Source: Bacillota bacterium (GTDB taxonomy: Bacteria > Bacillota > Limnochordia > Limnochordales > Limnochordaceae). Taken from it: a stretch of DNA of 64,000 bases. Below, one piece after another: positions 1-24,701 of this stretch. Where the stretch lies: positions 124,001-188,000 of the forward strand of contig PIUA01000023.1 of assembly GCA_017577405.1 (NCBI GenBank), given 5' to 3'. Each line of letters opens with the position of its first letter. Positions within the stretch are counted from its first letter, which is position 1. The translations under genes and the position numbers were made by a program. Below the pieces are notes generated by a model. That model made no database searches. It was not told the origin of the DNA and worked only from the letters and a program-made list of their open reading frames with translations.

Positions 1-732
1 GTCGGCCCTTATGCCATCATTGAGGGGCCTGTCCAGGTGGGGGAGGGGACGGAGATCGGCCCCCACGTGGTCATCTACGGGCCCACCCGCCTGGGACGCC
101 GGAACCGGATCGGCGCGGGGGCGGCGCTGGGCCTGGCGCCCCAGGATCTGAGCTACCGGGGCGAGCCCACCGAACTGGTGGTGGGCGACGACAACGAGAT
201 TCGGGAGCATGTGACCATCAGCCGGGGGACGGTCAAGGGAGGCGGCGTCACCCGCATCGGCAACCAGTGCTACCTGATGAACGCCAGCCACGTGGGCCAC
301 GACGTGCAAATGGGCGACCGGGTGATCCTCACCGGCTACGCGGGCCTGGCCGGCCACAGCCGGATCGGGGACGGGGCGGTCATCGGGGGCATGGCCGGCA
401 TTCACCAGTTCGTCTCGGTGGGCCGGCTGGCCATGGTCGGGGGGTTGGCCATGGTCCGCCAGGACGTGCCCCCCTTCACCCTGGTGGCGGGCAACCCGGC
501 GCGCGCCTACGGCTTGAACGTGGTGGGGCTCCGCCGGGCGGGCATGCCGGCCCAGACTCGGTCCTTGCTGAAGCAGGCCTACCGGCTGCTCTTCCGGTCG
601 GGCTTGCGCCTGGAGGAGGCCTTGGCCCAGATTGAAGCCCTGGGGTCGGTCCCGGAGCTGGCCGAGCTGGTCGCTTTTGCCCGGGCTTCCCAGCGGGGGC
701 TCGTGCGGGCGGGGGCGGACCATGACGACTGA
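1..732 (+). CDS. lpxA: UDP-N-acetylglucosamine acyltransferase LpxA (5' truncated by window)
   Basis: First step of lipid A synthesis: transfer of a hydroxyacyl chain from ACP to UDP-GlcNAc (or UDP-GlcNAc3N) in the cytoplasm. The open frame runs from base 1 without a stop, so the true start lies upstream; 243 of about 260 residues are visible. Left-handed beta-helix hexapeptide repeats run through the first two thirds. The family signature NASHVGHD is present, and its second His (codon 298-300) aligns with the catalytic His125 of E. coli LpxA. A C-terminal helical domain follows from about base 530. The stop overlaps lpxI by 11 bases, which suggests translational coupling. The family is clear; the preference for an oxygen or nitrogen acceptor cannot be read from sequence alone. 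Confidence 0.95.
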   Translation, partial: VGPYAIIEGPVQVGEGTEIGPHVVIYGPTRLGRRNRIGAGAALGLAPQDLSYRGEPTELVVGDDNEIREHVTISRGTVKGGGVTRIGNQCYLMNASHVGHDVQMGDRVILTGYAGLAGHSRIGDGAVIGGMAGIHQFVSVGRLAMVGGLAMVRQDVPPFTLVAGNPARAYGLNVVGLRRAGMPAQTRSLLKQAYRLLFRSGLRLEEALAQIEALGSVPELAELVAFARASQRGLVRAGADHDD

Positions 733-1618
733 GCGCGCGCCCCAGGGGGCGGATGAGATCCAGGGTGTGGCCATGGATGAGATCCAGGGTGTGGCCATCC
801 TGGCGGGCAACGGGCGGCTCCCTACCGAGGCGGCCGCACGGCTCTGCCGGCTGGGCGCGCCGCCCCTGGTCCTCGCGGTGGGCCCTGAGGTGGATCCGGA
901 GCTGCCCCAGTACGCCCGGGCCTACCACCGGCTGCCCGTGGGCCAGTGGGGGGAGGTGCGGCGGCTCCTGGTGGAAGGCGGGGTCCGCCGGGTGGCGCTC
1001 TTGGGTAAGGTGCCCAAGGTGAACCTCTACCATACGGCCATCGACCAGGCCCTGGCGGAGCTCCTGGCGGAGCTGCCCGCCCTCAACGACGACGCCATCA
1101 TGCTGGCCCTGGTGGATGACCTGTTGCGGATGGGCTTTGAGATCCCCACCCAGGCGTGGGCCCTTCCCCACCTGCTGATGCCCGAGGGCCAGCTGACCCA
1201 GACGGGGCTCACCCCCGAGGAACGGCGGGACATCGGCATCGGCTTCCGGGTGGCGCGGGAGATCGGGCGGCTCGACCTGGGCCAGACGGTGGTGGTCAAG
1301 GACCGGGCGGTGCTGGCGGTGGAGGCCATCGAAGGGACCGACCCCTGCATCCTGCGGGGTGGGGCCCTGGGCGGTCCGGGGGCGGTGGTGGTCAAGGTGC
1401 GCAAGCCCACCCAGGATGCCCGCTTCGACCTGCCCACCATGGGCCTGGACACCGTCACCGTGGCCAAGCAGGCGGGGGTGCGGGTTCTGGCCCTGGAGGC
1501 GGGCGAGACCATTCTGGTCGACCGGGAGCGGGTGATCGAGGAGGCCGATCGGGCCGGGATTTGCCTGATCGGGGTGCGGGAGGAGAAGGCGACGACGTGG
1601 GGGGTGTGGCCCGGGTGA
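722..1618 (+). CDS. lpxI: UDP-2,3-diacylglucosamine pyrophosphatase LpxI
   Basis: Hydrolyses UDP-2,3-diacylglucosamine to lipid X and UMP, replacing LpxH in many bacteria. The 298-residue product has the LpxI/DUF1009 layout: an N-terminal domain opening with ILAGNGRLP and a C-terminal domain containing VVVKDRAVLAVEAIEGTD and the late KVRKP...MGLDTV segment typical of the family. The ATG at 722 lies inside the end of lpxA. A second in-frame ATG at 773 would give a more typical short N-terminus. An exact 24-bp tandem duplication (751-798) lies between the two starts. The stop overlaps the GTG of lpxB (GTGA). Confidence 0.93.
   Translation: MTTERAPQGADEIQGVAMDEIQGVAILAGNGRLPTEAAARLCRLGAPPLVLAVGPEVDPELPQYARAYHRLPVGQWGEVRRLLVEGGVRRVALLGKVPKVNLYHTAIDQALAELLAELPALNDDAIMLALVDDLLRMGFEIPTQAWALPHLLMPEGQLTQTGLTPEERRDIGIGFRVAREIGRLDLGQTVVVKDRAVLAVEAIEGTDPCILRGGALGGPGAVVVKVRKPTQDARFDLPTMGLDTVTVAKQAGVRVLALEAGETILVDRERVIEEADRAGICLIGVREEKATTWGVWPG
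751..798 (+). repeat. Perfect 24-bp tandem duplication inside lpxI
   Basis: Two identical 24-bp copies (751-774 and 775-798) abut without a gap. They add eight codons, so residues DEIQGVAM are followed by DEIQGVAI. The copy number can change without shifting the frame. The first copy also supplies the alternative ATG at 773. Confidence 0.95.
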
Positions 1619-2943
1619 GGCGGGCGGACCGGAAGCGGATCATGATGGTGGCAGGCGAGGCGTCGGGCGACCTTCACGGCGCCGCCCTGGCGCGCGCTCT
1701 GCACGCCGCCGCGCCGGTCCGGCTTTACGGGTTGGGGGGGCCCCAGATGCGCCGGGCCCGGGTCCGGATCCTCTTCGACCCGACCCGCCTGGGGAGCATC
1801 GGCTGGAGCGAGTCCCTCCGCCGCTACCCCGTCTTCAAGCGGCTCTTCGTCCGGGTCTGCCGGATCCTGGAGCGAACCCGGCCCGACTGCCTGGTCCTCA
1901 TCGACTCCCCCGCCTTCAACATGCGCCTGGCAGAGGTGGCCCACCAGCTGGGCATCCCCGCCGTCTACTACTTTGCCCCCACGGCCTGGGCCTACGGCCG
2001 CAGCCGGGCCGAGCGGGTGGCCCGGTCGGTCCGGAAAGTCTGCTCCGTCTTCCCCTTTGAGGCCCAGGTCTACCGGGAGGCGGGCGCCGATGTGGCCTAC
2101 GTGGGCCACCCTCTGGTGGACGTGGTCGCCCGGGGCCTGCGGGATGAGGCGGCCCTCGCCGAGGCCCGGGAGCGCCTGGGGCTGCCCCAACCGGTGGACC
2201 GCCCGGACCTGGGAAGCCGGGAGGAGTCGGCCTCCCCGGCCCAGCCGGTGGTCGCCCTGCTCCCCGGGAGCCGGGAGCAGGAGATCCGGACCCTCCTGCC
2301 CGTCATGCTGGAGGCCGCCCACCGGTTCCGCCAGGAGGTTCCCGGCGCGCGCTTTCTTCTTCCCCTGGCGGAGAACCTGGCGGGCAGTCCGGTGGGCCAG
2401 TGGGTGGAAGACCGAGTGGCGGAGGCCCCCGCGCCCGTCCAGCTCCTGGTGGGGGAGAGCCTCCTGGCCTTGCAGCTGAGCGATCAGGCCTGGATCGCCT
2501 CGGGGACGGCCACCCTGGAGGCGGCCCTGGTGGGGGTGCCCCAGATCCTCCTGTACCGGGTCGCCACCTCCACCTATTGGATCGGCCGGATGCTCCTCCA
2601 GATTCCCAACATCGGCCTGCCCAACATCGTGGCCGGGCGGAAGATCATCCCCGAGCTGCTCCAAGGGGAGGCGACGCCCCGCCGCTTGGTGGCCGAGGCC
2701 GTCCGGCTGCACCGGGAGCCGGCCGCCCGGGAGGCCCAGCGCCAGGGGTACGCGACGGTCCGGGAACGGCTGGGCGAGCCGGGGGTGGTGGACCGGGTGG
2801 CCCAAATCGTCCTCCAGGTGGCCGGGGAGGCGGGAGGGGGCGAGGGGGCGCCTGCGCCTGGGAAGGGGCTCTCCCGACCGGGGGCAGAGCCCCGAGATGG
2901 AGCCGCCTCCCGGGGTGGGGATGAAGGTGGCGCCGGCCCATGA
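1615..2943 (+). CDS. lpxB: Lipid-A-disaccharide synthase LpxB
   Basis: GT19 glycosyltransferase condensing UDP-diacylglucosamine with lipid X to form the lipid A disaccharide at the inner face of the membrane. The GTG at 1615 overlaps the lpxI stop as GTGA. The N-terminal MMVAGEASGDLHG motif and the C-terminal LLPGSREQEI, SGTATLEAALVGVPQ and PNIVAGRKIIPELLQ blocks are diagnostic. At 442 residues it is longer than the usual 380 or so. The extra length is a Pro/Arg-rich insert before the PGSR motif and a low-complexity Gly/Pro/Arg tail after about residue 400. The downstream LpxB-like gene starts inside the stop codon (ATGA). Confidence 0.95.
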   Translation: MRRADRKRIMMVAGEASGDLHGAALARALHAAAPVRLYGLGGPQMRRARVRILFDPTRLGSIGWSESLRRYPVFKRLFVRVCRILERTRPDCLVLIDSPAFNMRLAEVAHQLGIPAVYYFAPTAWAYGRSRAERVARSVRKVCSVFPFEAQVYREAGADVAYVGHPLVDVVARGLRDEAALAEARERLGLPQPVDRPDLGSREESASPAQPVVALLPGSREQEIRTLLPVMLEAAHRFRQEVPGARFLLPLAENLAGSPVGQWVEDRVAEAPAPVQLLVGESLLALQLSDQAWIASGTATLEAALVGVPQILLYRVATSTYWIGRMLLQIPNIGLPNIVAGRKIIPELLQGEATPRRLVAEAVRLHREPAAREAQRQGYATVRERLGEPGVVDRVAQIVLQVAGEAGGGEGAPAPGKGLSRPGAEPRDGAASRGGDEGGAGP

Positions 2944-4313
2944 CGGAGGTTGTGGTCACGGTCAACAGCCCCGGCGAGGTGGCCACCTGGCTTGAGCCCC
3001 TGGCCCGGGAGCTCCTGCCCCGGCTGGCCGACGGCCGGCTGACGGTGATGATCCCGCCCTGCACCTACGCCAGCGGCGCCGAGGCCCGGGTGGTCCGCTC
3101 CTTCCTGGGCGGGGACCCGCGGGTGGCGGTCTTGGAGCCCCAAGAGGTGCTGGGGTGGCTCCTCTTGGGCCGGCGTCCCCGGGGGTATGAGCCGGTGGGC
3201 CGCGGCGCGGTCCTCTTCCTGGGGGGCGACATGGTCTACGCCGCCTGGATCGCCCGGCGGTTGGGGTACCGGGCCCTGGCCTACACCGAGGGCCGGGTCC
3301 GGTGGACAGGAACGTTTGAACGTTTTCTTCTGCCCGATGAACGGGCGCTGGAGCGGGCCCTCAGGCGTCTGGGGGCCCAGGCCGAGGGGCTCCGGCCCCG
3401 CCTGGAGGTGGTGGGCGACCTGATGGTGGACGCGGCCCGGAGCCGCATCCCGCTGCCCCAGGTGCGGGCGTGGCTGGGCCTGGAGCCTGGAGAGCAGCTC
3501 CTCCTCCTCCTGCCTGGCAGCCGGGCGGCCGAGATCCACCTGGTCCTGCCCCTCTACCTGGAAGCTCTGGCCTGCCTGGCCGGGCCTTCGGGGCCCGATC
3601 CGGCGCGCGGCAAGCCGGGGCGGCCGTTGCGCGCGGTGGTCGCCCTCTCCCCCTTCGTGGACGGGGAGGAGGCCCTGGCGGTGGCCCGGTGGGCCCTCAG
3701 GCAGGCGGGCGGCTGGCGGGAGATGGGGGTTGAGGGGTCCTCAGCCGATCTTCCGGGGGTCCGGCGGGTGGTGCTGGCCGAGCGGGTGGAGGGGGGCCGG
3801 CCGCTCCGGGTGGAGCTGGTCCAAGGGGCCAGCCGGGAGCTGATGGCTGTTGCCGACTTGGCCCTCACCCTTCCCGGGAGCAGCACCGCCGAGATGGCCG
3901 CCTTCGGCCTGCCCATGGTGGTGGTCTTGCCCCTCCAGTGGCCCGAGAAGATCCCTTTGGAGGGCCTGCCGGGGCTGGTGGGCCGCCTTCCGGGGGTGGG
4001 GCCCGCGGTGAAGCGGTGGGCGGTCCGCCGGCTGGACCGGTCCATCGGCTTCGTGGCCCTCCCCAACCGGTGGGCGGGCCGGGCGGTGGTGCCGGAGCTG
4101 CGCGGGGTGGTCCGCCCCGAGGTGCTGGCCCGGGAGCTGGCCGGTTGGCTGGACGATGAGGCCCGGCGGGCCCACCTCCGCCAGGCATTGGAAGGGCTGC
4201 GAGGCGAGCCCGGAGCCGCCCAACGGGTGGCCGCCCGGGTGCTCACCCTGGCCCAGGCAGGGTTGGGGACCGGCGAGTCGGGCGGTCCCGATGTTCAGGA
4301 GGTTGTGTCATGA
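2940..4313 (+). CDS. LpxB-like (GT19-related) glycosyltransferase of unknown acceptor
   Basis: A 457-residue GT-B fold protein that resembles LpxB but is clearly divergent. It opens with VVVTVNSPGEVATWLEP where LpxB has GEASGD. It keeps the LLLPGSRAAEIHLVLP motif near residue 190 and LTLPGSSTAEMAAFGLPMVVV near residue 310. LpxB-specific residues after that point are replaced by a block running into VALPNRWAGRAVVPELRG. It sits between lpxB and an MsbA-like exporter with four-base overlaps on both sides, so a role in adding to or remodelling the lipid A core before export is plausible. The donor and acceptor are unknown. A non-catalytic paralogue is possible. Confidence 0.75.
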   Translation: MTEVVVTVNSPGEVATWLEPLARELLPRLADGRLTVMIPPCTYASGAEARVVRSFLGGDPRVAVLEPQEVLGWLLLGRRPRGYEPVGRGAVLFLGGDMVYAAWIARRLGYRALAYTEGRVRWTGTFERFLLPDERALERALRRLGAQAEGLRPRLEVVGDLMVDAARSRIPLPQVRAWLGLEPGEQLLLLLPGSRAAEIHLVLPLYLEALACLAGPSGPDPARGKPGRPLRAVVALSPFVDGEEALAVARWALRQAGGWREMGVEGSSADLPGVRRVVLAERVEGGRPLRVELVQGASRELMAVADLALTLPGSSTAEMAAFGLPMVVVLPLQWPEKIPLEGLPGLVGRLPGVGPAVKRWAVRRLDRSIGFVALPNRWAGRAVVPELRGVVRPEVLARELAGWLDDEARRAHLRQALEGLRGEPGAAQRVAARVLTLAQAGLGTGESGGPDVQEVVS

Positions 4314-6130
4314 TGCCGGCAACGGTCCCCACGTCGAAGATGACCCCCGTCCAGGCTCCGGCCGGTCCCCACCTTGACCGGAGGAGCGTGGCCCTCCGGC
4401 TCCTGGCCCAGATCCGGCCCCATCTGCGCATGGCCTTGGCCGGGCTCCTCTGCATGCTGGTGGTTTCGGCCACGGAGCTGCTCCTGCCGCTCATCTTCGG
4501 CCAGGGCATCGTCAACGAAGTGCTGAGCCCCCAAAGCTCCATGACCCGGGTCACGCAGCTGGTGCTGGTCCTGGTGGGTCTCATGACGGTTCGGGGCCTC
4601 TTCCGGTACGGCCGCAGCTACCTCCTGGGGTACACGGCCCAGCGCCTGGTGACCGATCTGCGCAGCCAGGTCCACCAGAAGCTTCAGGCCCTCTCCCTGG
4701 ACTTCCACCAGCGGCACCGGACGGGCGAACTGGTCTCCCGCATCACCTTCGACACCACCCAGATCCAGCAGGGGGTGGCCAACGGTGTGGCGGACCTCAT
4801 CGCCCAGCTGGCCACCCTAGCGGGCGTGGCCGTCATGCTCGTCTACCTGAATGTCCGCATGGCCGCGGTCAGCCTGGTGGTCTTGGTGGTGGCCGGCGGT
4901 GCCATCCACGGGTACGGGCGGCGGATCCGGCACGCCAGCCGGCGGGTTCAGGAGCGGATGGCCGACATCGCCGCCACCCTCCAGGAGATGCTGGGCGGCA
5001 TCCGGGTGGTGAAGGCCTTCACCCTCCAGCGGCGGCTCCAGCGCCGCTTCGACGAGGAGAATGAGGCGGGCTTCCGGGCCCAGATGAAGTCGGTCCAGCT
5101 GGAGGCGACCATCACGCCGGTGGTGGAGCTTCTGACCGCCATCGGGGTGGCCGCCATCCTCTGGGTGGGGGGCTGGGAGATCCTCCACCAGCGGATGGAC
5201 GCGGGGGAGTTCATGAGCTTCGTGGGGTACCTGGCCCTGGTGCTGGGCCCGGTGGGGGGGCTCTCCCGCACCTGGACCCAGCTCCAGCAGGCGGCCGCGG
5301 CCAGCCAGCGCATCTTTGAGCTGTTGGACGAGCCCGAACGGGTGGTCGAGCTGCCCCAGCCCCGGCGGCTCCGCCAGTGCCAGGGACGGGTCACCTTTGA
5401 GAACGTGTGGTTCGCCTATGAGCCCGGCCAGTGGGTCCTCCAGGGGATCGACCTGGAGGTGGCGCCCGGGGAGCGGGTGGCCTTGGTGGGCCCCAGCGGC
5501 GCCGGCAAGTCCACCCTGATCAACCTGATCCCCCGCTTCTACGACCCCGATCGGGGCGTGGTGCGCATCGACGGCATCGACGTGCGGGAGCTGGCCCTGG
5601 AGGACCTGCGGGGGGCCATCGGCCTGGTGCCCCAGGAGACCGTCCTGTTCGGGGTGAGCCTCCGGGAGAACCTTGCCTACGGCCGGCCCGACGCCACCTG
5701 GGAGGAGATCGTGGCCGCGGCCAAGGCGGCCAACGCGCACGACTTCATCGTGCAGCTGCCCCACGGGTACGACACCCGGGTGGGGGAGCGGGGGGCCACC
5801 CTCTCGGGCGGCCAGCGCCAGCGGATCGCCATCGCCCGGGCCCTCCTGCGGGATCCCCGGGTGCTCCTCCTCGATGAGGCCACCTCCTCCCTGGACGCCG
5901 CCTCGGAGCGGCTGGTCCAGGAGGCCCTGGAACGCCTCATGGAGGGCCGGACCAGCGTGGTGGTGGCCCACCGGCTCTCCACCGTGGTCAACGCCGACCG
6001 GATCCTGGTCATCGACGGGGGCCGGGTGGTGGAGGAAGGGACCCACGCGGAGTTGATGCGACTGGGAGGCCTCTACCGGGAACTTTTCGAAGCCCAGGTA
6101 GAGAAGGGGGTGGGGGCCTCTGGCTCGTGA
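4310..6130 (+). CDS. msbA: MsbA-like lipid A/LPS exporter, ABC half-transporter
   Basis: A 606-residue half-transporter with six predicted membrane helices in residues 35-330 and a nucleotide-binding domain from about 360. Walker A (GPSGAGKST), the signature LSGGQRQR, Walker B with the catalytic Glu (LLLDEATSSLD) and the H-loop (VVVAHRLST) are all intact, consistent with an active homodimer. Its position between lpxB-like genes and lptB makes flipping of lipid A across the inner membrane the most likely job. The ATG at 4310 overlaps the previous stop (ATGATG; the second ATG is at 4313). Assignment as MsbA rather than a drug exporter rests on context. Confidence 0.85.
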   Translation: MMPATVPTSKMTPVQAPAGPHLDRRSVALRLLAQIRPHLRMALAGLLCMLVVSATELLLPLIFGQGIVNEVLSPQSSMTRVTQLVLVLVGLMTVRGLFRYGRSYLLGYTAQRLVTDLRSQVHQKLQALSLDFHQRHRTGELVSRITFDTTQIQQGVANGVADLIAQLATLAGVAVMLVYLNVRMAAVSLVVLVVAGGAIHGYGRRIRHASRRVQERMADIAATLQEMLGGIRVVKAFTLQRRLQRRFDEENEAGFRAQMKSVQLEATITPVVELLTAIGVAAILWVGGWEILHQRMDAGEFMSFVGYLALVLGPVGGLSRTWTQLQQAAAASQRIFELLDEPERVVELPQPRRLRQCQGRVTFENVWFAYEPGQWVLQGIDLEVAPGERVALVGPSGAGKSTLINLIPRFYDPDRGVVRIDGIDVRELALEDLRGAIGLVPQETVLFGVSLRENLAYGRPDATWEEIVAAAKAANAHDFIVQLPHGYDTRVGERGATLSGGQRQRIAIARALLRDPRVLLLDEATSSLDAASERLVQEALERLMEGRTSVVVAHRLSTVVNADRILVIDGGRVVEEGTHAELMRLGGLYRELFEAQVEKGVGASGS

Positions 6131-8365: not shown

Positions 8366-9081
8366 GCCTCCAGGCCCAAGGGCTGGTCAAGGGGTACCGG
8401 GGCCGGGTGGTGGTCCGCTCCGTCAGCTTGGAGGTGGGGCCTGGGGAGGTGGTGGGCCTCCTGGGCCCCAACGGGGCGGGGAAGACGACCACCTTCTACA
8501 TGATCCTGGGCCTGGTCCGGCCCGATGCGGGGACGGTCTTCTTGGACGGCCGGGATATCTCGAGGGTGCCCGTCTACCAGCGGGCCCGCCTGGGGCTGGG
8601 GTACCTGGCCCAGGAGCCCTCCATCTTCCGGCGGCTGACGGTGGAGGAGAACCTGCGGCTGATCCTGGAGCGGCTCCCTTTGAGCCGGGAGGAGCAAGAG
8701 GCCCGGGTGGAGCAGCTCTTGGAGGAGTTCGACCTGGTGGCCCTGCGGCGACAGCCGGCCGCCCTGCTCTCGGGCGGCGAAAGGCGCCGCTGCGAGGTGG
8801 CCCGGGCGGTGGCCGGGGAGCCCCGGTACCTGCTCTTGGACGAGCCCTTTGCGGGGGTGGACCCCATCGCGGTGGCCGAGCTCCAGGAGCTGATCCGCTC
8901 CCTCACCCAGCGGGGGATCGGCGTTCTCATCACCGACCACAACGTCCGGGAGACCCTGACCATCACCCACCGGGCCTACATCATGCACCAGGGGCACGTC
9001 CTGGTGGCGGGCACCGCGGAGGAGCTCCTGGAGAGCCCCGAAGCCCGCCGATTCTACTTGGGGGAGCGGTTCCGCCTGTGA
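8362..9081 (+). CDS. lptB: LPS export ABC ATPase LptB
   Basis: Cytoplasmic ATPase that powers LPS extraction by the LptFG permease. It has 239 residues from the GTG at 8362, which overlaps the epimerase stop. Walker A GPNGAGKTTTFYMI, signature LSGGERRRCEVARAV, Walker B LLLDEPFAGVDPIAV and the LptB-characteristic LITDHNVRETL and AYIMHQGHVL stretches are all present. The permease gene starts inside its stop codon, which supports assembly of the two products. Confidence 0.95.
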   Translation: MSLQAQGLVKGYRGRVVVRSVSLEVGPGEVVGLLGPNGAGKTTTFYMILGLVRPDAGTVFLDGRDISRVPVYQRARLGLGYLAQEPSIFRRLTVEENLRLILERLPLSREEQEARVEQLLEEFDLVALRRQPAALLSGGERRRCEVARAVAGEPRYLLLDEPFAGVDPIAVAELQELIRSLTQRGIGVLITDHNVRETLTITHRAYIMHQGHVLVAGTAEELLESPEARRFYLGERFRL

Positions 9082-10166
9082 AGCGCTTGGACCGGTACAT
9101 CCTGAAAGAGCTGGCCGGGTCTGTCCTCTTTGGATTCGGCGCCTTCACCAGCCTCTTCCTGGCGGCGGAGATGGTCAACCTGGCCAGCCTGGCCGCCGAC
9201 CTGAAAGCACCCGTGGGCGCGCTGGTCCGGGCCTTCCTCCTGGGCATCCCCCAGATCCTGGGCTGGACCCTCCCCATGGGGATCATGGTGGGGAGCCTCC
9301 TCACCCTCTCGCGGCTGTCGGCCAACTCGGAGATCGTCGCGCTCCAGGCCGGCGGCTACAGCCTCCGCCGGGTCACCCTGCCGGTGCTCGCCTTGGGCCT
9401 TGCCTTTGTGCTCATCGCCGTGGGGGTGAATGAGTGGCTCGCCCCCTGGGCCAACACCGAGCGGGAGCGGGTGATGGTGGAGCAGGTGCGGGGGCGGACC
9501 CTGCCCGTCGAGTCCCGGAATATCACGCTGGAGCAGTACCAAGGGGGGCGCCTCTCCTGGTTTCTGTACGCCGCCCGCTTCAACCCCACGGCCCAGACCA
9601 TGCAGGATGTGACCATGATCCGTCTCGAGGACGGGCGGCCGGTGGAGACCACCTTCGCCCGCCGGGTGGTCTGGGTGGGCGACCAGTGGGCCATGGAAGA
9701 CGGCGAGCGGTACCGGTTCGAGCCCGATGGCCGGGCGGTCCGCATCGCCTTCCAAGGGGGGCGCCAGCCTGCCGCCATCCCCTACCGGCCGGGGCAGGTG
9801 GCTCAGGGGACCAAGCCCCCGGAGCAGATGGGGCTCCGGGAGCTGGGGGCCTACATCCGGGTCCTGCGAGCCCAAGGGGTGGAGGCCCGGGCCCAGCGGG
9901 TGGAGTGGCACCTCAAACTGGCCATCCCCTTCGCCAGCCTGGTCTTCGCCCTTCTGGGCTCGGGGATGGGCATCCAATCCCACCGGAGCGCCGTTTCCGT
10001 CGGTTTCGGCCTTTCGGTGGGGGTCATCTTCGTTTATTATGTAGTTATGACCCTTGGCACAGCCCTGGCCAAATCAGGCAGCCTTCCCCCCGAGCTGGGT
10101 GCGTGGATTCAGAACCTTCTGGGGCTGGCTGTGGGAGGGGTTCTCTGGGCCCGGTTGGACCGGTAA
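9078..10166 (+). CDS. LPS export permease LptF/LptG family
   Basis: Inner-membrane YjgP/YjgQ-family permease of 362 residues from the GTG at 9078. It opens with the family signature LDRYILKEL, followed by three N-terminal helices (residues 12-125), a periplasmic jellyroll-type domain (about 130-270) and three C-terminal helices. Only one permease gene follows lptB, whereas E. coli has separate lptF and lptG. The partner may be elsewhere, or this one may act as a homodimer. LptA and LptC are not seen beside it. Confidence 0.9.
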   Translation: MKRLDRYILKELAGSVLFGFGAFTSLFLAAEMVNLASLAADLKAPVGALVRAFLLGIPQILGWTLPMGIMVGSLLTLSRLSANSEIVALQAGGYSLRRVTLPVLALGLAFVLIAVGVNEWLAPWANTERERVMVEQVRGRTLPVESRNITLEQYQGGRLSWFLYAARFNPTAQTMQDVTMIRLEDGRPVETTFARRVVWVGDQWAMEDGERYRFEPDGRAVRIAFQGGRQPAAIPYRPGQVAQGTKPPEQMGLRELGAYIRVLRAQGVEARAQRVEWHLKLAIPFASLVFALLGSGMGIQSHRSAVSVGFGLSVGVIFVYYVVMTLGTALAKSGSLPPELGAWIQNLLGLAVGGVLWARLDR

Positions 10167-12964: not shown

Positions 12965-14602
12965 ATGCGCAAAAAGGGCTTGGCGGCGCTCCTCGCCGGC
13001 CTGATGGTCCTGGCGTTGAGTGTGCCGGCGCTGGCACAGCAAAGACCCTTCCCCGACGTGCCGGCAAGCCATTGGGCGGCCGAGTCGGTGGAGTTGCTGA
13101 GGGCGGCGGGGTTGGTCATTGGCTACCCCGACGGTGAGTTCAAGGGCAACCGGCAGCTGACCCGGTATGAGTGGGCCATGATTGTCGCCCGTCTCGTCGA
13201 CCGGCTCGATGCCATGGTGGCCAGCCAGGTCGATGCGGCCTACGCGGAGGTGGAGGCCAACGCGGTTGCCCGGGTCAACCAGGCCATCGCGGACCTGGTC
13301 GCCCGCCTGGAGGCTGGCGAGGCGGCCCAGCGGGCCTTCTACGGCGTGGAGCCGGCTGAGGTGGCCTCCATCGTCGGGTCGACCGGGCGGATCCCCCTGT
13401 CGGCCGCGGCCGAGTCCACCTTCGCCTCCCTGGCGGCCAACGTGATCGAGGCGTACCTGGCCTCTTACCAGCCGCCTGAGGAGCTGAAGGGTGACATCGA
13501 GGCCATGGTGGCCGACGCCCTCTCCGGGCTGGACAGCCGGGTCACCCGTCTCGAGGCTCGCACGCTGGTGGCCCAGCAGGACATCCGGGAGACCCGCCGG
13601 CTGATCGAGGAGACGGCCAACACCCTCAAGGGGAGCGTCCAGGCCCTGCTCGACGAGTTCCGGGCCGATCTGGATGCCCTGGGGGTCCGGGTGGCTGACC
13701 TGGAGGCCTGGCGGGCTGAGACCGACAACCGCATCACGGCGCTCGAGAGCCGCGTCGAGCAGCTGGAGCGGGAGACCGTCAACCTGAAGAACCGCATCGA
13801 CATGACCCAGGCGACGGCCGACGAGGCCATCAACCGGGCCATGGCCCTGGAGCGGACCGTGGGCCAGGCCACCCGGAAGGCCCTGACCGGCGCCTATCAG
13901 CTCGAGTACCTGGCTGACGGCGACGCGAGCGGTTTCCTGGGCCAGGCCCAGCTGGTCGCCACCGAGGTGGCCGGCACCGACGCTTCGGCCAACGTCACTC
14001 TGGGTATGGTGGCCAGCGGCGATCAGGCTAGCCCCTTGTTCAGCTTGGGCGTGACGGGCCCCATCGGCCGGGTGGACACCGGGGCTGAGGTGGCCGTCCT
14101 CGGCGCTACGACCCGCTTTGACCTGAACGCTGGCCTCGACATGGGCATCCTCCGCTTCACCACCGGGGCCCGGTTCGTCAACGGCGCTAGTTATACCGGC
14201 GTCGACTTGCAGGTCCCCGGCTGGAACCGTCGCCTGGCGGAGGGCATGACCTACCACGTGGGCCTCGGCCTGCCGCTGGAGTGGCGTGCCTTCACCATCA
14301 CCCCGGTGGTCGACGCGGTCATCGCCGACGCCGATGCGTCCACGGACGGCGCCGAGACGGGCATCGGCCTGGGGGCTGAGGTGGCCACCGCCTTCCTGGG
14401 CGGCGAGCTGAAGGGCCGGCTCGTCTACCCGGTGAGCGAGCAGGCGGCCCTGGCGGCGGCTGACAAGGCGGCTTCCTCCGTCAGCGTCAGCGTGCCCGTC
14501 GGCGCCCTCAAGCTCCTGGGCAGCGTCTCCACGGAGCTGGGCGTGGCCGATGGCGACGAGGCCATCACCATCTACGCTCTGGGTATCCGGGGCGAGTTCT
14601 AA
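12965..14602 (+). CDS. OmpM-like outer-membrane porin with SLH tether
   Basis: A 545-residue exported protein. The signal peptide (1-24) ends ALAQQ. One SLH domain (about 26-80) carries FPDVPASHWA, the GYPDGEF turn and LTRYEW. A long helical, coiled-coil stalk (about 85-300) includes several VADLEAWRAETDNRI-type heptads. A C-terminal beta-barrel domain (about 305-545) ends YALGIRGEF with a terminal Phe. This is the architecture of the OmpM and SlpA-type proteins that anchor the outer membrane to peptidoglycan in Negativicutes, Deinococcota and other diderms. It has its own leader and a strong terminator, suggesting high monocistronic expression. Confidence 0.9.
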   Translation: MRKKGLAALLAGLMVLALSVPALAQQRPFPDVPASHWAAESVELLRAAGLVIGYPDGEFKGNRQLTRYEWAMIVARLVDRLDAMVASQVDAAYAEVEANAVARVNQAIADLVARLEAGEAAQRAFYGVEPAEVASIVGSTGRIPLSAAAESTFASLAANVIEAYLASYQPPEELKGDIEAMVADALSGLDSRVTRLEARTLVAQQDIRETRRLIEETANTLKGSVQALLDEFRADLDALGVRVADLEAWRAETDNRITALESRVEQLERETVNLKNRIDMTQATADEAINRAMALERTVGQATRKALTGAYQLEYLADGDASGFLGQAQLVATEVAGTDASANVTLGMVASGDQASPLFSLGVTGPIGRVDTGAEVAVLGATTRFDLNAGLDMGILRFTTGARFVNGASYTGVDLQVPGWNRRLAEGMTYHVGLGLPLEWRAFTITPVVDAVIADADASTDGAETGIGLGAEVATAFLGGELKGRLVYPVSEQAALAAADKAASSVSVSVPVGALKLLGSVSTELGVADGDEAITIYALGIRGEF

Positions 14603-16463: not shown

Positions 16464-16586
16464 GGGATCCGCTCGTTCTCGGGAGTGGGTTGGGAAGGGT
16501 GTGACGGCGGGGTGGGGCCGAGGGCGCGACCGGCGCCTGGCTTTGGGGGACGGGCCCGCGCGAGACGGGACGAGGAGGATGGGACC

Positions 16587-17528
16587 ATGATGCAACGTCG
16601 CTTTCGGTGGCTGGCCGCGGTGCTGGTCCTGGGGATGCTGGCGGCGCCCGTGCCCGCCACCGCCCAGGAAGGGACCCCGCTGGCCCGCCTGGAGGCCCTG
16701 GAGGAGGCCGCCTACGGGCAGATCAAGCAGGGCTCGCTCCTGGCCCGGGTGGAGGCCCTGGAGCAGGATCTTTTGGGAACGGTTCAGCAGGGGGCCCTCC
16801 TCGACCGCCTGAGCCGGCTCAACGGCCTGTTCTACGCGCCGGCGAGCGACGGCACTTCGTTGATGATGCGCCTCAGTGCCGCGGAGTGGGTGCTCCTAGG
16901 GATGATGGGCAGCGGCGCGGTGGAACCCAGGATCCAGACCCTGGAGGAGCTCCTCCTCGGCGAGCCCCAACAGGGCTCCGTCTTGAGCCGGCTGGCCACC
17001 ATTGCCCGGATGATCTGGCCGGACGGGGCGGTGAGCATTGCCCAGCGCCAGGTTCCCGCCGGCACCCGGGTGAGCCTCCGGTTGGAGGCGGAGGTGAACT
17101 CGGGCTCCGCCCGGGTGGGGCAGACCATCCCCTTCACCGTCCTCCGGGATGTGGTCGTCGACGGGGACCTGGTGATCCTGGCGGGCGCCCAGGGTGAAGC
17201 CCGGGTGTCGGAGGTGCAGGCGGCCGGCGCCCTGGGCCGGAACGGCAAGATCAGCCTGGACTTTGGCTCGGTCCCGGCCTTCGACGGTACCCCCGTGCCC
17301 CTGGGCCTCACCCAGCGGACGTCCAACTCAGGCTCGGAGGAGCTGGCGGCTGCCGCGGGCCTGACGGGGGTGCTCCTGGTGGGGGCGGCCACCACCGTCG
17401 TCTTGGCGCCCGTGGGCCTGGCGGCCGGGGCCCTGATCCAAGGCCAGAACGTGGTCCTGCCCGCGGGGACCGAGATGGTGGTGGAGGTGACCCGAGCCGT
17501 TCCTGTGACGGCCCTTCGGGGCCTCTGA
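16587..17528 (+). CDS. Exported protein with six ~20-residue Leu/Glu repeats
   Basis: A 313-residue product. ATG 16587 (a second ATG is at 16590) follows GAGGAGGA. The signal peptide (1-25) ends ATAQ. Residues 26-150 form six repeats of about 20 residues, best seen in QGSLLARVEALEQDLLGTVQ, each with a Gly near the start and a helical LxRLExLE core. The second half (about 155-313) is a predicted beta domain with QVPAGTRVSLRLEAEVNSG and a hydrophobic stretch VLLVGAATTVVLAPVGLAAG, ending PAGTEMVVEVTRAVPV. I do not recognise a characterised family. Its place after three envelope porins suggests a periplasmic role. Confidence 0.6.
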   Translation: MMQRRFRWLAAVLVLGMLAAPVPATAQEGTPLARLEALEEAAYGQIKQGSLLARVEALEQDLLGTVQQGALLDRLSRLNGLFYAPASDGTSLMMRLSAAEWVLLGMMGSGAVEPRIQTLEELLLGEPQQGSVLSRLATIARMIWPDGAVSIAQRQVPAGTRVSLRLEAEVNSGSARVGQTIPFTVLRDVVVDGDLVILAGAQGEARVSEVQAAGALGRNGKISLDFGSVPAFDGTPVPLGLTQRTSNSGSEELAAAAGLTGVLLVGAATTVVLAPVGLAAGALIQGQNVVLPAGTEMVVEVTRAVPVTALRGL

Positions 17529-17555: not shown

Positions 17556-17760
17556 CTCTGCCCGGGGTCACGTTTTCCGAACCAGTCCAGGCGCACCGGA
17601 GATGGACCGATCCGGCAAGGGACTGGAAAGAGGATCGCTGGCGGCCTTGTCGAAAGGCGTGAACGGTCCTCGAGGTTCGGGAAACGTTGGATGATCCAAG
17701 ATGCCTGTGGGGTCTTGACGGGGCATCTTGGATTGCCGTAGAGAAGAGGAGGCAGGGCCC

Positions 17761-18756
17761 GTGCCGGAACTGGAGCACGTCCCTGTGTCGCTGATCGACC
17801 CGGATCCCGGCCAGCCCCGCACCCGCTTCGACCAAGAAGCCCTCGACGGGCTCGCCCGGAGCTTGCGTGAGGTGGGTCAACTCCAGCCCATCCTCGTCCG
17901 GCGGAATGGGGATCGCTTCCGGCTGGTGGCTGGGGAACGCCGGTGGCGCGCCGCCCGGCAGTTGGGCCAAAAGGCCATTGCGGCGCTGGTTCTGGACCAG
18001 GGCCCGCCTGCCCAAGGAGGGGACAGGCTCCTCCAGCTGGCGGAAAACCTCCAGCGGGAGGACCTGGACCCCCTGGAGCGGGCCCGCGCGGTGGCCGCCC
18101 TCATGGAGGCCGAGGGCTTGAGCCAGAAGGCGGTGGCCGAGCGACTGGGTCTTCCCCGGACGACCATTGCCGACTGGCTCGACCTGCTGAAAGTGGAGCC
18201 CCGCTTTCAAGAGGCGGTGGTCGCCCAAGCCCGGGGGGAGGCGGGAGGGCTGAGCCTCTCCCACGTGAACGAGGCCTTGGCCCTGGCCAACGTCCGGGGC
18301 GACGAGGCCCTGGCCGGCCAGCTCCTGGACCTGGCCCTGGCGTCCAGCTTGAGCAAGGCGCAGATGCGCCGGGCCTGCCGCCTGCTCCGGGATCACCCGG
18401 AGATGGAGCCGGAGGAGGCGGTCCGGCGAGTTCTCCAGGAGGCTCGCCCCAAGACTCGGGCGGAGGTGCCGGAGCCGGGTACGCCGGAGGCCAACCTGCA
18501 ACGCCTTTTGGTCTCGTTGGACCGATCCGCCTCCTACGTGGAGCAGCTGAGCCATGTCTCCTCCCGGTTCCTCCCGCCGGAACTCCGGGAGGCGCTGCTG
18601 GAACGATTTACTCGGCTCCACGAGGTCACGGAGAAGGCCTTGGAGCGGTTAAGCGCGTCGCCCCGGGAGGCGGCGCAGCAGGCCAAGGAGGAGCGGCGGG
18701 TCCGGCGGCAGGTGGAGCGCCGCCGGCAGAAGGAGCGGGCCCGGCGGCTGGCTTGA
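17761..18756 (+). CDS. ParB/Spo0J-family DNA-binding protein
   Basis: A 331-residue protein. The N-terminal ParB/Srx domain opens VPVSLIDPDPGQPRTRFD and contains GERRWRAARQLGQ, the nucleotide-binding box of ParB CTPases. A central HTH follows (SQKAVAERLGLPRTTIADWL, about 122-142). The C-terminus is a strongly basic, helical tail (QVERRRQKERARRLA) after a likely dimerisation helix. GTG 17761 has an AGAGGAGG site. ParB homologues spread from centromere-like sites and act in chromosome segregation or nucleoid occlusion. No parA is adjacent, so it may be a Noc-like or stand-alone regulator. Confidence 0.85.
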   Translation: MPELEHVPVSLIDPDPGQPRTRFDQEALDGLARSLREVGQLQPILVRRNGDRFRLVAGERRWRAARQLGQKAIAALVLDQGPPAQGGDRLLQLAENLQREDLDPLERARAVAALMEAEGLSQKAVAERLGLPRTTIADWLDLLKVEPRFQEAVVAQARGEAGGLSLSHVNEALALANVRGDEALAGQLLDLALASSLSKAQMRRACRLLRDHPEMEPEEAVRRVLQEARPKTRAEVPEPGTPEANLQRLLVSLDRSASYVEQLSHVSSRFLPPELREALLERFTRLHEVTEKALERLSASPREAAQQAKEERRVRRQVERRRQKERARRLA

Positions 18757-19013: not shown

Positions 19014-20000
19014 TTGGCGTTACGGGTAGGGGTTGTCGGGGTCGGCAGCATGGGGAAGAATCACGCTCGCATCTACGCGCAGATGCCCGGTCGCGTCAAG
19101 CTGGTCGGAGTGGCCGACATCGATGCGGCCCAGGCCCAGCAGGTGGCCCACCTGTATGAGTGTGAGGCGTACACCGACTACCGGGAGCTTTTGGACCGGG
19201 TGGATGCGGTCAGCATCGCGGTGCCCACGTCCCTTCACTTTGAGACGGCGGCCCACTTTCTGGAGCGGGGGATCCACGTCCTCCTGGAGAAGCCCATGAC
19301 CTCCACCGTCGAGGAGGGGGCCCGGCTTCTTCAGATCGCCCGCGCCAACGGCTGCACCCTCCAGGTGGGGCACGTGGAGCGGTTCAACCCGGTGGTGACG
19401 GAGCTGCAGCGGATCGTCCGGGAAGAGGAGATCACCGCGGTCAACATCCAGCGCCTCAGCCCCTACGACGGCCGGGTGGTGGATGCGGACGTGATCCTCG
19501 ACCTGATGATCCATGACCTGGACATCCTCACCATGCTCTTCGGCCAGCCCATCCGCCCCATTGCGGGGATGGGCCGCTCCCTCCACAACCCGGAGCAGGT
19601 GGACTACGCGGTGGCCATGCTCCAGGTGGGGGATGAGACCCTGGCCACCGTGACCGCCAGCCGGGTGACGGCCAGCCGGGTGCGGCGGATGGAGCTTTCC
19701 AGCCCCAGCGCCTGGATCGTGGCCGACTACATCGAGCGCCGGATCACCATCACCCGGAACCCGATGGGCCGAGCTTCCCGGAACGGCACCTACCGGCAGA
19801 AGGGGGTCTTGGAGCAGATCTATCTGCCCGCCCTGGAGCCCCTGGCCGAGGAGATCCGCCACTTCCTGGAGTGCATCGAGACCCAGAAGCACCCCCTGGT
19901 CTCGGGTGAGACGGGCCTGGCCGCCCTCAAGCTGGTGGAGCACATCCAGCGCGACATTTACGGACGAGTTGCAGAAAGGGGTATGGCCGCTGCCCTCTGA
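19014..20000 (+). CDS. Gfo/Idh/MocA-family sugar-nucleotide dehydrogenase, GnnA/WlbA-like
   Basis: NAD-dependent oxidoreductase of 328 residues. The Rossmann motif VGVVGVGSMGKNHARIY is at the N-terminus, EKPMTSTVEEG with the catalytic-region Lys near residue 95, and the GHVERFNPVV and DLMIHDLDI blocks after that. WlbA oxidises UDP-GlcNAcA and GnnA oxidises UDP-GlcNAc at C3; both pair with a DegT aminotransferase, as here. The TTG at 19014 follows AGAGGTGG (19001-19008); GTG 19005 is an alternative. The 3' end overlaps the aminotransferase by about 32 bases. The GnnA-type role is an inference from pairing and from the nearby lipid A genes. Confidence 0.8.
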   Translation: MALRVGVVGVGSMGKNHARIYAQMPGRVKLVGVADIDAAQAQQVAHLYECEAYTDYRELLDRVDAVSIAVPTSLHFETAAHFLERGIHVLLEKPMTSTVEEGARLLQIARANGCTLQVGHVERFNPVVTELQRIVREEEITAVNIQRLSPYDGRVVDADVILDLMIHDLDILTMLFGQPIRPIAGMGRSLHNPEQVDYAVAMLQVGDETLATVTASRVTASRVRRMELSSPSAWIVADYIERRITITRNPMGRASRNGTYRQKGVLEQIYLPALEPLAEEIRHFLECIETQKHPLVSGETGLAALKLVEHIQRDIYGRVAERGMAAAL

Positions 20001-21129
20001 CGGAGTCGCTCCCATTCCCATCGCCAAACCGTTCCTGACCGAGCGGGAGTACGAGCTGGTCCGGGAAGTGCTCGACTCGGGCCAGCTCGCGGAAGGGTCG
20101 TACGTCCACCGGTTCGAGGAGGCCTTTGCCGCCGCCCAGGGCGTGCCCTACGTGGTGGCTACCAGCAACGGGACCACCGCCCTCCACACCGCCCTGCTGG
20201 CGGTCGGGGTCCGCCCCGGGGACAAGGTGTTGACCACGCCCTTCACCTTCATCGCCACCGCCAACGCCATCCTTTTCTGCGGGGCCCGGCCTGTCTTCGC
20301 GGACGTGTCCATGGAGACGGCCAACCTGGATCCGGCCTCGGTGGAGGCGGCTCTTAAGGCTGACCCCAGCATCCGCTACATGTTGGTGGTCCACCTCTAC
20401 GGCCTGCCCGCGCCCATGCGGGAGCTGATGGCCCTGGCCGAGGCGTACGACGTCACCGTGGTGGAGGACTGTGCCCAGGCCCACCTGGCCACCCTGGACG
20501 GCCAGCCCGTGGGCACCTTCGGCCGGGCGGCCGCCTTCAGCTTCTACGCCACCAAGAACCTGACCACCGGTGAGGGAGGCTGTGTGGCCACCACCGACCC
20601 GGAGGTGGCCGAGCGGGCCCGCCTCATCACCCACCATGGCCAGACGGGCCACTACTTCCACGAGGTCCTCGGGTACAACTACCGGATGACCAACGTGGAG
20701 GCGGCCATCGGGCTGGGCCAGGTGGAGCGGATCGAGGCCATGACCGAAGCCCGCCGGGCCAACGCGGCGTTCTACACCCAGGCCTTCCAAGGCCACTCCT
20801 TTGGCCTGCCCGTGGAGCCCCCCGGGTACCGGCACGTCTACCATCAGTACACCCTCCGGGTGCCGGGGAAGAACGGCGAGCACCGGGACCAGCTGGCCGC
20901 TTTCCTCAAAGCGGAAGGGATCGGCACGGGGATCCACTACCCCCGGCCCCTCACCCGGCAGCCCTCCCTGGCGGGCCGGTTCGATGTGGTGGGTGACGGC
21001 GAGCTGCCCGTGGCGGAAGAGCTGGCTTCCCAGGTCCTCTCCCTTCCCGTCCACCCCCTGGTGAGCGAGGCGGACCGGGAGCGGGTGGCGGAGGCCGTTC
21101 TCCGCTGGGAGGCCCAAGCCCTCCGCTGA
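19969..21129 (+). CDS. DegT/DnrJ/EryC1-family sugar aminotransferase, GnnB/WlbC-like
   Basis: PLP-dependent transaminase of 386 residues acting on keto-sugar nucleotides. Markers are SNGTTALHTALLA near residue 65, TTPFTFIATANA, VVEDCAQAHLA near 165 and the PLP-lysine segment FSFYATKNLTTGEGG near 190. It would aminate the 3-keto sugar produced by the upstream dehydrogenase. The start is ambiguous: TTG 19969 lies within the upstream gene, while CTG 19990 has a better-placed GAAAGGGG site. An acetyltransferase (WlbB) is not present, which favours a GnnB-type product (UDP-GlcNAc3N) over the diacetamido uronate pathway. Confidence 0.85.
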   Translation: MQKGVWPLPSDGVAPIPIAKPFLTEREYELVREVLDSGQLAEGSYVHRFEEAFAAAQGVPYVVATSNGTTALHTALLAVGVRPGDKVLTTPFTFIATANAILFCGARPVFADVSMETANLDPASVEAALKADPSIRYMLVVHLYGLPAPMRELMALAEAYDVTVVEDCAQAHLATLDGQPVGTFGRAAAFSFYATKNLTTGEGGCVATTDPEVAERARLITHHGQTGHYFHEVLGYNYRMTNVEAAIGLGQVERIEAMTEARRANAAFYTQAFQGHSFGLPVEPPGYRHVYHQYTLRVPGKNGEHRDQLAAFLKAEGIGTGIHYPRPLTRQPSLAGRFDVVGDGELPVAEELASQVLSLPVHPLVSEADRERVAEAVLRWEAQALR

Positions 21130-22886: not shown

Positions 22887-24557
22887 TCAAGACCGGGCCG
22901 ACGCCCGTTGGAGGATCCGGTCCACCCGCTCCCGTTCGGTCAGGATCCGTCCGGAGTCGGGGTCGACGGCCACGATCTTGCCGTCCACAGGCTGGGTGAC
23001 CAGCTCGCCCCGGACCTCCGGTGCCGGGTTGCCGGCAAAGTGGGGCGTGTCCAGAAGCCCGATGGTGACCGCCCGGGTGAGGGTGTCAGCATCGGTGAAG
23101 GGATCCTCGACGCCCGGCGGCGCGAGGGAGGCAATGGCGTCCAAGAGGACCTGGGCCTCGGCCAGGAGCTCCTCCTTGCGGGCCTGGACCCGGGGGTCGG
23201 CCGTCATGTCCGGCGCGCCGCCCAGGAAGTCCCGCACCACACCCCGGGCGATGCGGCAGCTCTCGATGATCTCGGGCGCGGTGGCCGCATGGTCGGCCTC
23301 GCTGTAGGCCACCACGTGGAGGATGTGGGGCTTGAGGGCCATCTGCAGGAAGATGGAGGCGGCCATGTGGCCCTTCGCCTCGTCCAGGTTGGGCGGGTGG
23401 GAGCGCAGGCCCACCCGGGTCTCCCGGAAGACCTCGAAGGTTTCATCCTGGAGGGACTCGATCAGCTCCACCTTGGCCAGCATCTTGGCCAGGTCCATGG
23501 CGAACGAGGTCTCCGGCGGGGTGTTGAACATGTACTGGGCCACGTAGTGGCGCACCCCTGCCGCCTTGGCGTTGCGCGCGGCCAAGTAGGCCATCACCAC
23601 GGCGATGGTGTCGTGGGCATCCCGCAGGCTCCAGTGGTGGGACTCGTTCATCTCAACGGGGATGCCCCGGGAGGCGTGCCACCGCATGACCTCCTGGGCC
23701 TCCAGGATCGTCTCCCGCAAAGACCGGTCCGACCGGCCGTCCAGAACGCTGTACCAGGTGAGGGGGATGGCGCCCCAGGCCAGGTTGATGGTCTCGTGGA
23801 GCACCTCGGCCATGCGGATCAGGTTGCGGGTGCCCGCATAGGAGCGCATCAAGGGGTAGTTGCCCGTGCGGGAGGCCTCATAAAGCGCCCGGAACTGCTC
23901 GGGCGTCCGCACCGGCACCCCGCCCGCGCCGTCCTGCTTGGGGTCCGCCTCCTCGGGGTGGAAGAAGTGCTCCTGGGTGTTCTGGTCCACCCCCAGGGAG
24001 ATGACGTCCAGGGTCTCCGACTCGGCCAGCAGCCGGACGCCCTCGAGGGTCTCCTCGAAGGAGGGCTGCCCGTAGTGATGGCGGATGATGGGCTCCGGGG
24101 CGCGGAACGCGATCCGCTCGGGGAGGGTCTGAGGCCAGGAGACCTGCCGTTCTTCCAGAGGCACACCCCGGAAGTAGGCCAGCACCGCCTCGGGGCCCTC
24201 GGTGCCGTCGAAGGCCCGTTCGAAGAGGGGAAGCCGCTCGGCAATCCGGCAGACGGGTGGCGTGCCGCCGAAGACGAAGCGCCGGCGGCTCAAGCCCGCC
24301 TCCTGGACCAGGCGCTGGAAGTGGCGCAAGACATTGGCCCCCGCCTGGGGCGAGAGCCGGTAGCTGATGGCCACCAGGTCAGGGTCATGCTCCCGGATCG
24401 CGTCGACCACCCGCTCTGGGGCGACGGCCGGGCCCAGCATGATGGTCTCGAAGCCGGCCTCGCGCGCGATGCGGATGACCGCGTGGAGGCCCGCCACGTG
24501 GACACAGTCGCCGATGGCCGCGGCCAGCATCAAGCGGGGCCGATGGTTGTGGGCCAC
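22887..24557 (-). CDS. Cobalamin-binding, mutase-like protein of unknown reaction
   Basis: A 556-residue protein. The GTG at 24557 has an AAGGAGG site (complement of 24565-24571); a longer form from ATG 24596 is less likely. Residues 10-130 form a B12-binding fold with AAIGDCVHVAGLHAV, whose His falls in DxxHxxG rather than the usual DxHxxG spacing. A large domain follows (about 230-480) with RSYAGTRNLIRMAE, AIPLTWYSVLDGRS and MNESHHWSLRDAHDT. It resembles the TIM barrel of methylaspartate mutase-type enzymes. Domain order and the conserved HHW motif suggest a carbon-skeleton or aminomutase-like reaction or a corrinoid methyltransferase. I cannot name the substrate. Confidence 0.6.
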   Translation of the reverse strand: MAHNHRPRLMLAAAIGDCVHVAGLHAVIRIAREAGFETIMLGPAVAPERVVDAIREHDPDLVAISYRLSPQAGANVLRHFQRLVQEAGLSRRRFVFGGTPPVCRIAERLPLFERAFDGTEGPEAVLAYFRGVPLEERQVSWPQTLPERIAFRAPEPIIRHHYGQPSFEETLEGVRLLAESETLDVISLGVDQNTQEHFFHPEEADPKQDGAGGVPVRTPEQFRALYEASRTGNYPLMRSYAGTRNLIRMAEVLHETINLAWGAIPLTWYSVLDGRSDRSLRETILEAQEVMRWHASRGIPVEMNESHHWSLRDAHDTIAVVMAYLAARNAKAAGVRHYVAQYMFNTPPETSFAMDLAKMLAKVELIESLQDETFEVFRETRVGLRSHPPNLDEAKGHMAASIFLQMALKPHILHVVAYSEADHAATAPEIIESCRIARGVVRDFLGGAPDMTADPRVQARKEELLAEAQVLLDAIASLAPPGVEDPFTDADTLTRAVTIGLLDTPHFAGNPAPEVRGELVTQPVDGKIVAVDPDSGRILTERERVDRILQRASARS

Positions 24558-24630
24558 GCTGCCCAACCTCCTTTCGACGCGCAGGGATGTCTTCATGCTA
24601 ACATCCTGACCGGGGAGGGTCAAATAAAGG

Positions 24631-24654
24631 GGAGGCTGGTCCTGGCCAGCCTCC
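24631..24654 (-). terminator. Intrinsic terminator after the GlsB-type gene
   Basis: A 9-bp stem (24646-24654 with 24631-24639), read on the minus strand, is followed by CCTTTATTT. It separates the small membrane protein gene from the B12-protein gene. Confidence 0.85.
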
Positions 24655-24701
24655 CTCATCCCTTGGATCGCGGCTCATCCCGGCCGGAGCGGGGTCCGCC
24701 C

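Follow-up and report, generated by a model that had tools for sequence, protein, structure and literature searches.

A GnnA/GnnB-like gene pair in the outer-membrane gene cluster of a diderm Bacillota bacterium suggests an amide-linked lipid A

Two overlapping genes at the end of an outer-membrane gene cluster in a bacterium of the phylum Bacillota may direct the synthesis of a lipid A that carries amide-linked acyl chains. In Acidithiobacillus, and also in Leptospira, GnnA and GnnB convert UDP-GlcNAc to UDP-GlcNAc3N, from which LpxA then gives amide-linked lipid A. By homology to these two enzymes, the product of the first gene (A) would oxidize the 3''-OH of UDP-GlcNAc, and that of the second (B) would transaminate the 3-keto product to yield UDP-GlcNAc3N. 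The single LpxA, whose gene heads the cluster, would then acylate the 3''-amine rather than the 3''-hydroxyl, leaving the primary acyl chains at lipid A position 3 amide-linked. We give this explanation as a whole a probability of roughly 0.6. In our judgment, synthesis of UDP-GlcNAc3N by A and B is likely, and amide-linked lipid A, while unproven, is the outcome that the gene evidence favors.

The stretch of DNA analyzed here (the window, 64,000 nucleotides) spans positions 124001-188000 of contig C14 in a 2.25 Mb genome (G000) that is 86% complete. It opens inside lpxA, whose 3′ part occupies positions 1..732 on the + strand (TIGR01852, 289.5 bits against a cut-off of 231) and whose start lies 66 bases upstream of the window, the entire gene covering contig positions 123935-124732. 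Immediately upstream of the window are lpxD and lpxC. Also on the + strand are lpxI, encoding a UDP-2,3-diacylglucosamine hydrolase (773..1618; Pfam LpxI_N and LpxI_C), lpxB, encoding lipid-A-disaccharide synthase (1630..2943; TIGR00215, 267 bits), and a gene for an msbA-like lipid A exporter (4310..6130; Pfam, with an NCBIfam match under the MsbA cut-off). An LptB-like ABC ATPase (8335-9081) precedes an lptF/lptG-type LPS export permease (9078..10166, +; Pfam LptF_LptG, E 1.2e-87). Farther along are an OmpM-like outer-membrane protein with an N-terminal SLH domain (12965..14602, +; Pfam SLH), homologs of which occur in the corresponding cluster of three other genomes (G338, G315 and G402), and a 347-aa protein lacking a Pfam match (16485..17528, +). 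The latter has homologs in the outer-membrane clusters of G338 (E 9e-33), where it resides between OmpM and an lpxA2-gnnA-gnnB operon, and of G402 (E 3e-35). A ParB/Noc-type gene (17728..18756, +; Pfam) separates the outer-membrane cluster from A, and synteny puts it at the matching location in the congener G001 and in G070 and G065. A and B thus sit at the far end of the cluster that lpxA heads. Because this cluster contains lpxD, lpxC, lpxI, lpxB, an msbA-like gene, a LptF/LptG permease and an SLH porin, the identification of the host as a diderm Firmicute with LPS, already proposed in an earlier sequence-only reading, is well supported.

Other features of the region deserve mention. Flanking msbA, beside the true lpxB, are two LpxB-like proteins (2940-4313 and 6147-7400), both of which are kept in G001 and G070; the second exceeds the TIGR03492 cut-off. 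Positions 22887-24659 encode, on the other strand from the gnn pair, a protein of 590 aa in which Pfam recognizes only a B12-binding domain at the N terminus.

A (19014..20000, +) is an intact open reading frame of 328 codons that runs from TTG 19014 to TGA 20000, with an alternative start at GTG 19005. Its membership in the Gfo/Idh/MocA dehydrogenases, including the NAD-binding Rossmann domain, is indicated by Pfam (GFO_IDH_MocA, E 1.1e-35), by an AlphaFold2 model (pLDDT 91.7) and by Foldseek, and the residues E92-K93-P94, D163, H167 and D168 are invariant in a 20-row alignment. The top PDB match by sequence is 7bvj/7bvk at 146 bits, the next entry scoring 75, and 7bvj is again first in the Foldseek search with the model (E 6.8e-33, TM 0.88; runner-up E 6e-25). 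This entry is titled UDP-N-acetylglucosamine 3-dehydrogenase GnnA from Acidithiobacillus ferrooxidans, with which A shares only 31% identity. The best NCBIfam match, NF040723 (archaeal UDP-N-acetylglucosamine 3-dehydrogenase), is almost full length and reaches 264 bits, below the cut-off of 450, a shortfall that counts against the proposed reading; lpxA-linked bacterial homologs of A likewise fall below it, which indicates that the model is narrow. The sequence and fold matches to 7bvj support the designation of A as a GnnA-like protein and proposed UDP-GlcNAc 3-dehydrogenase.

B (19969..21129, +) is an intact DegT/DnrJ/EryC1/StrS PLP aminotransferase (Pfam DegT_DnrJ_EryC1, E 3.9e-116) whose PLP lysine, K196 when numbered from TTG 19969, is conserved in the alignment. 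The frame is open from TTG 19969, a codon that is not conserved in G001, where no ATG, GTG or TTG precedes the conserved core of B in the open frame. CTG 19990, by contrast, is shared by both genomes, in the closing part of A, where their sequences are almost the same. As G000 and G001 have no ATG, GTG or TTG start in common, translation of B probably begins at CTG 19990 or at some other unusual codon in this stretch. The coupling of a Gfo/Idh dehydrogenase to a DegT aminotransferase described from the sequence is borne out by two intact frames that overlap by 11-32 nt, depending on whether CTG 19990 or TTG 19969 is the start. The pair is also conserved in G001 (88% identity for A, 80% for B), 19.5 kb from its lpxA, which argues against a chance pairing of open reading frames.

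Judged by sequence and fold, B is a nucleotide-sugar aminotransferase that fits several such enzymes about equally, and its sequence cannot pick GnnB over WbpE-like enzymes. Its proposed GnnB role therefore derives from its partner, beside which it is encoded. Thus, the GnnA half of the original GnnA/GnnB-like call is upheld by both sequence and fold, and the GnnB half is plausible. Two other pathways come into question. The first is of the Wlb/Wbp type, in which UDP-GlcNAcA would be the substrate of A and the resulting 3-keto compound that of B, en route to 2,3-diamino-uronates. B resembles WbpE (3nyu, 204 bits) no more and no less than it does many sugar aminotransferases; A, in contrast, scores only 44 and 40 bits against 3q2k and 3q2i, which we take to be WlbA structures, compared with 146 bits against GnnA. 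On these scores the Wlb-type assignment of A was rejected, and the Wlb-type kinship that the sequence-only reading had named as its own refutation did not appear for this gene. With A not closest to WlbA and no WbpD/WlbB acetyltransferase alongside, membership of the pair in a WlbA/WbpB-WbpE uronate pathway is highly improbable. The second pathway would make some other amino sugar, with B acting at C4 in the manner of PseC, ArnB or perosamine enzymes, or A acting on inositol or a free sugar. PseC is the best NCBIfam match of B (294 bits, under a cut-off of 423.5), and A weakly matches IolG; the regularity with which such aminotransferases accompany GnnA-type dehydrogenases and LpxA in different lineages nevertheless leaves this pathway scarcely credible.

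UDP-GlcNAc3N need not be destined for lipid A. The pair could instead supply a surface glycan (an S-layer glycan, O-antigen or exopolysaccharide), in which case an enzyme encoded elsewhere would carry out the N-acetylation and LpxA would behave as a normal O-acyltransferase. The family of A lends some substance to this alternative, as its homologs at 80 named loci occur in at least five contexts: between LpxA and DegT (L173, Syntrophaceae); with DegT and a WbpD-like acetyltransferase (Heyndrickxia, Anaerolineae, Omnitrophota and Halopiger); with DegT alone; about one gene from LpxA, lacking DegT; and, in cyanobacteria, with none of LpxA, DegT or acetyltransferase. Close homologs of both A and B adjoin the acetyltransferase in Heyndrickxia (L114), Anaerolineae (L121) and the archaeon Halopiger (L175). 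Moreover, the homolog of A most identical outside the genus (46%) has a WbpD-like acetyltransferase as its neighbor and belongs to a polysaccharide cluster in G342, a genome in which no LpxA was detected, which counts against the lipid A interpretation. Identity to A was therefore rejected as a guide to function when taken alone: the family is common to several pathways, and similarity to A cannot by itself separate lipid A from glycan synthesis.

The surroundings of the window pair give a different impression. As first noted from the sequence, it has no adjacent acetyltransferase, its neighbors being the ParB/Noc-type gene upstream of A and a convergent asparagine synthetase downstream of B, and in G000, G001 and the examined genomes of family f4 it is surrounded by neither a glycan cluster nor an acetyltransferase. 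A search for a WbpD-like acetyltransferase returned no close match, the best reaching E 4e-8 in G000 and 3e-8 in G001. An acetyltransferase or a second LpxA could be missing from a genome that is 86% complete, but the single-contig G001 agrees with G000. In addition, the position of the pair in the cluster is common to lpxA-linked pairs. The acetyltransferase search weakens the glycan explanation, though only in part given the incompleteness of the genome, and we consider it unlikely while still deserving serious weight.

Linkage to lpxA is one line of evidence for the lipid A interpretation. In the window, the pair does not lie immediately beside lpxA; from the end of lpxA to the start of A is 18.3 kb on the same strand, in agreement with the 18 kb reported earlier, and 19.5 kb separates them in G001, yet the genes belong to one cluster. 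This distance is unconvincing by itself, given that the gnn pair and lpxA are on separate contigs in all five f4 genomes. Nor is linkage to the cluster universal, since in the f4 genome G070 the cluster runs on to ParB without the gnn pair, which sits on another contig. Separation of gnnA/gnnB from lpxA has a precedent in Phyllobacterium, which nonetheless has GlcN3N lipid A (PMC5644692). In G402, the pair is found between a KdsC-like gene and hldE, waaF and waaA (annotated by eye), inside an LPS core cluster.

Far tighter linkage is seen in a second order of diderm Bacillota, 38 genomes around G338, which from its gene content is probably Halanaerobiales. Eighteen of the 38 genomes contain gnnA, and in 14 of these 18 the immediate neighbor of gnnA, on the same strand, encodes an LpxA homolog (G338, G151, G315, G482, G483, G485, G458, G460, G481, G472, G473, G474, G477 and G478), with gnnB after gnnA in each of the 11 linked loci read out. 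In G472, G477, G478 and G481, the gnn-linked copy is the only LpxA found, and should the amide-linked reading hold, lipid A in these members would depend wholly on that LpxA. The lpxA2-gnnA-gnnB operon lies 24 kb from the canonical lpxA in G338 and 15 kb from it in G315, and in both genomes it ends a cluster after lpxB, LptB, a RuvX-like protein and OmpM, which is the gene order of the window. The window and G001 follow this order as far as gnnA-gnnB, except that they have an inserted ParB and lack lpxA2, and A is 39-40% identical to gnnA of three such operons (L094-L096).

In a concatenated A+B tree, the window pair forms one group with the f4 pairs, the Halanaerobiales-like pairs and L114 of Heyndrickxia (support 96/93), a group that thus includes an acetyltransferase-linked locus, in keeping with the glycan alternative. 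A single clade of the three diderm groups was not rejected (p-AU 0.255), and joining family f1 with L114 and L121 together was rejected (p 0.0002). Single-gene trees placed the window pair without resolution; in the tree of B, which holds no characterized GnnB, B clusters with DegT proteins from f4, the Halanaerobiales-like genomes and archaea and not with the DegT of L173. Across the class, homologs of A (E 1e-30 or better) are present in 11 of 73 genomes, the close ones (E below 1e-75) being confined to f1 (2/2) and f4 (5/5), families of the same order. Among 398 sampled Bacillota, 82 have LpxA; of the 9 genomes in which A has a close homolog, 8 do (hypergeometric p 1.8e-5, with no correction for kinship).

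The LpxA of the window, the sole one found in G000 just as G001 has one, belongs to the family and retains the catalytic His125. At the position of E. coli Lys76, which corresponds to P. aeruginosa Lys72, the residue that contacts the sugar 6-OH (PMC7072397), it has Ser; the G001 protein has Gly, as does L. interrogans LpxA (by alignment and the pocket table in PMC7072397). Of the 16 LpxA encoded next to gnnA, 15 have D, E, G, N or S in place of Lys76, which is retained in 35 of 39 further, unlinked LpxA, the remainder being Arg (two), Gly (L284) and one diverged paralog. G479, where LpxA is followed by gnnB and gnnA is missing, also has a LpxA without Lys76. Loss of Lys76, a signature derived here rather than an established criterion and present in G000 (Ser) and G001 (Gly), is suggestive of an LpxA that uses UDP-GlcNAc3N. 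The association is not phylogenetically independent, as most linked LpxA cluster in the tree and the paired test had n=3 usable pairs. Lys76 was rejected as a stand-alone diagnostic: L173 is a true lpxA-gnnA-gnnB operon yet retains Lys, f4, G402, G463 and G465 retain it with gnnAB unlinked to lpxA, and L284 has Gly although no gnn genes are nearby. Loss of His144 in f4 LpxA was set aside as a second signature, as B. fragilis LpxA has Glu there (PMC7072397).

Further LpxA variants were encountered in the survey. A LpxA at L305 (G286; 7754-8530) has Gly76 within the motif QHLGF, an exception to the Lys76 pattern; no gnn gene was present in the 20 kb read, and a close gnnA was not found in that genome. 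In six loci from several phyla (L138, L151, L160, L191, L192 and L193), lpxA is followed at a distance of about one gene (0.8 kb) by an A homolog, the available flank showing no DegT, and Lys76 is also missing from 3 of the 5 LpxA checked among them. G315 has an intact gnn-linked LpxA, while its copy at the canonical lpx cluster position lacks the catalytic His and further residues of the pocket, and the LpxA sequence of G484 (L256) is diverged like that canonical-position protein (L105). In families f2 and f3 of the window's order, a second LpxA paralog that has lost the catalytic His125 adjoins a DegT aminotransferase (L068, 8418-9254; L069-L073; L086), and in f3 (L068, L069) this pair is located between comM- and dprA-like housekeeping genes. 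The idea that it represents a GnnB-LpxA2 pair was dropped, these genomes having no close GnnA and the paralog no catalytic His.

With an LpxA that takes both UDP-GlcNAc and UDP-GlcNAc3N, the backbone would be hybrid or variable, along the lines proposed for Capnocytophaga (GlcN3N-GlcN). For C. canimorsus, such a backbone has been described together with gnnA/gnnB and two lpxA genes (PMC3342949), and canonical and gnn-linked LpxA are both present in G338, G151, G458 and G460. In G000 and G001, however, there is one LpxA, with a pocket unlike the canonical one at position 76, and mixed use is quite improbable for the window. For acylation of the 3''-amine, the argument comes from gene linkage in related diderm Bacillota, the shared cluster order and the loss of Lys76. 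The proposed link from the pair to LpxA and lipid A is thus strengthened by the lpxA-gnnA-gnnB operons, cluster order, A+B grouping and Lys76 pattern, and is unproven for this organism.

If the amide-linked reading is correct, the lipid A chemistry of these diderm Firmicutes would differ from that of most diderms, with consequences for how the lipid withstands alkali, how innate immunity recognizes it and how the outer membrane of ancestral Firmicutes is pictured; amide chemistry would be expected to confer resistance to hydrolysis. It predicts GlcN3N with amide-linked 3-acyl chains, for which the lpxA-gnnA-gnnB operons provide candidate test enzymes. With slightly less than even odds, GlcN3N-based amide-linked lipid A extends to two diderm Bacillota orders (Limnochordales-like and Halanaerobiales-like), with gnnA-gnnB in the ancestral outer-membrane cluster of at least part of the lineages, a broader proposal that we put forward tentatively. 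The papers that could be searched contained nothing relevant on gnnA or diaminoglucose lipid A in Firmicutes; they report lipid A genes for diderm Firmicutes, and none mentions gnnA/gnnB in them.

Among known systems, the GnnA/GnnB-LpxA pathway of A. ferrooxidans and L. interrogans resembles the window in that A is nearest to A. ferrooxidans GnnA, a DegT gene is paired with it and LpxA is present, with Ser or Gly at the Lys76 site in the window and G001 proteins and Gly in that of L. interrogans. It differs in that the window pair is 18 kb from lpxA, in a diderm Bacillota host, with only 31% identity to A. ferrooxidans GnnA and a predicted activity. The Halanaerobiales-like lpxA2-gnnA-gnnB operons (L094, L095, L096, L257-L263 and L269) share the cluster order (G338, G315) and the A+B group; there, LpxA is inside the operon and often a second copy, whereas the window has a single LpxA at the cluster head and no lpxA2. 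The hybrid lipid A of C. canimorsus offers a precedent for gnn genes with two LpxA in an unrelated host, the window having one. The WlbA/WbpB-WbpE-WbpD system, which leads to UDP-2,3-diacetamido uronates, has the same Gfo/Idh plus DegT architecture, but A is much nearer to GnnA and has no WbpD-like neighbor. Finally, the archaeal NF040723 enzyme is the best NCBIfam counterpart of A, which at 264 bits stays under the 450-bit cut-off of that model.
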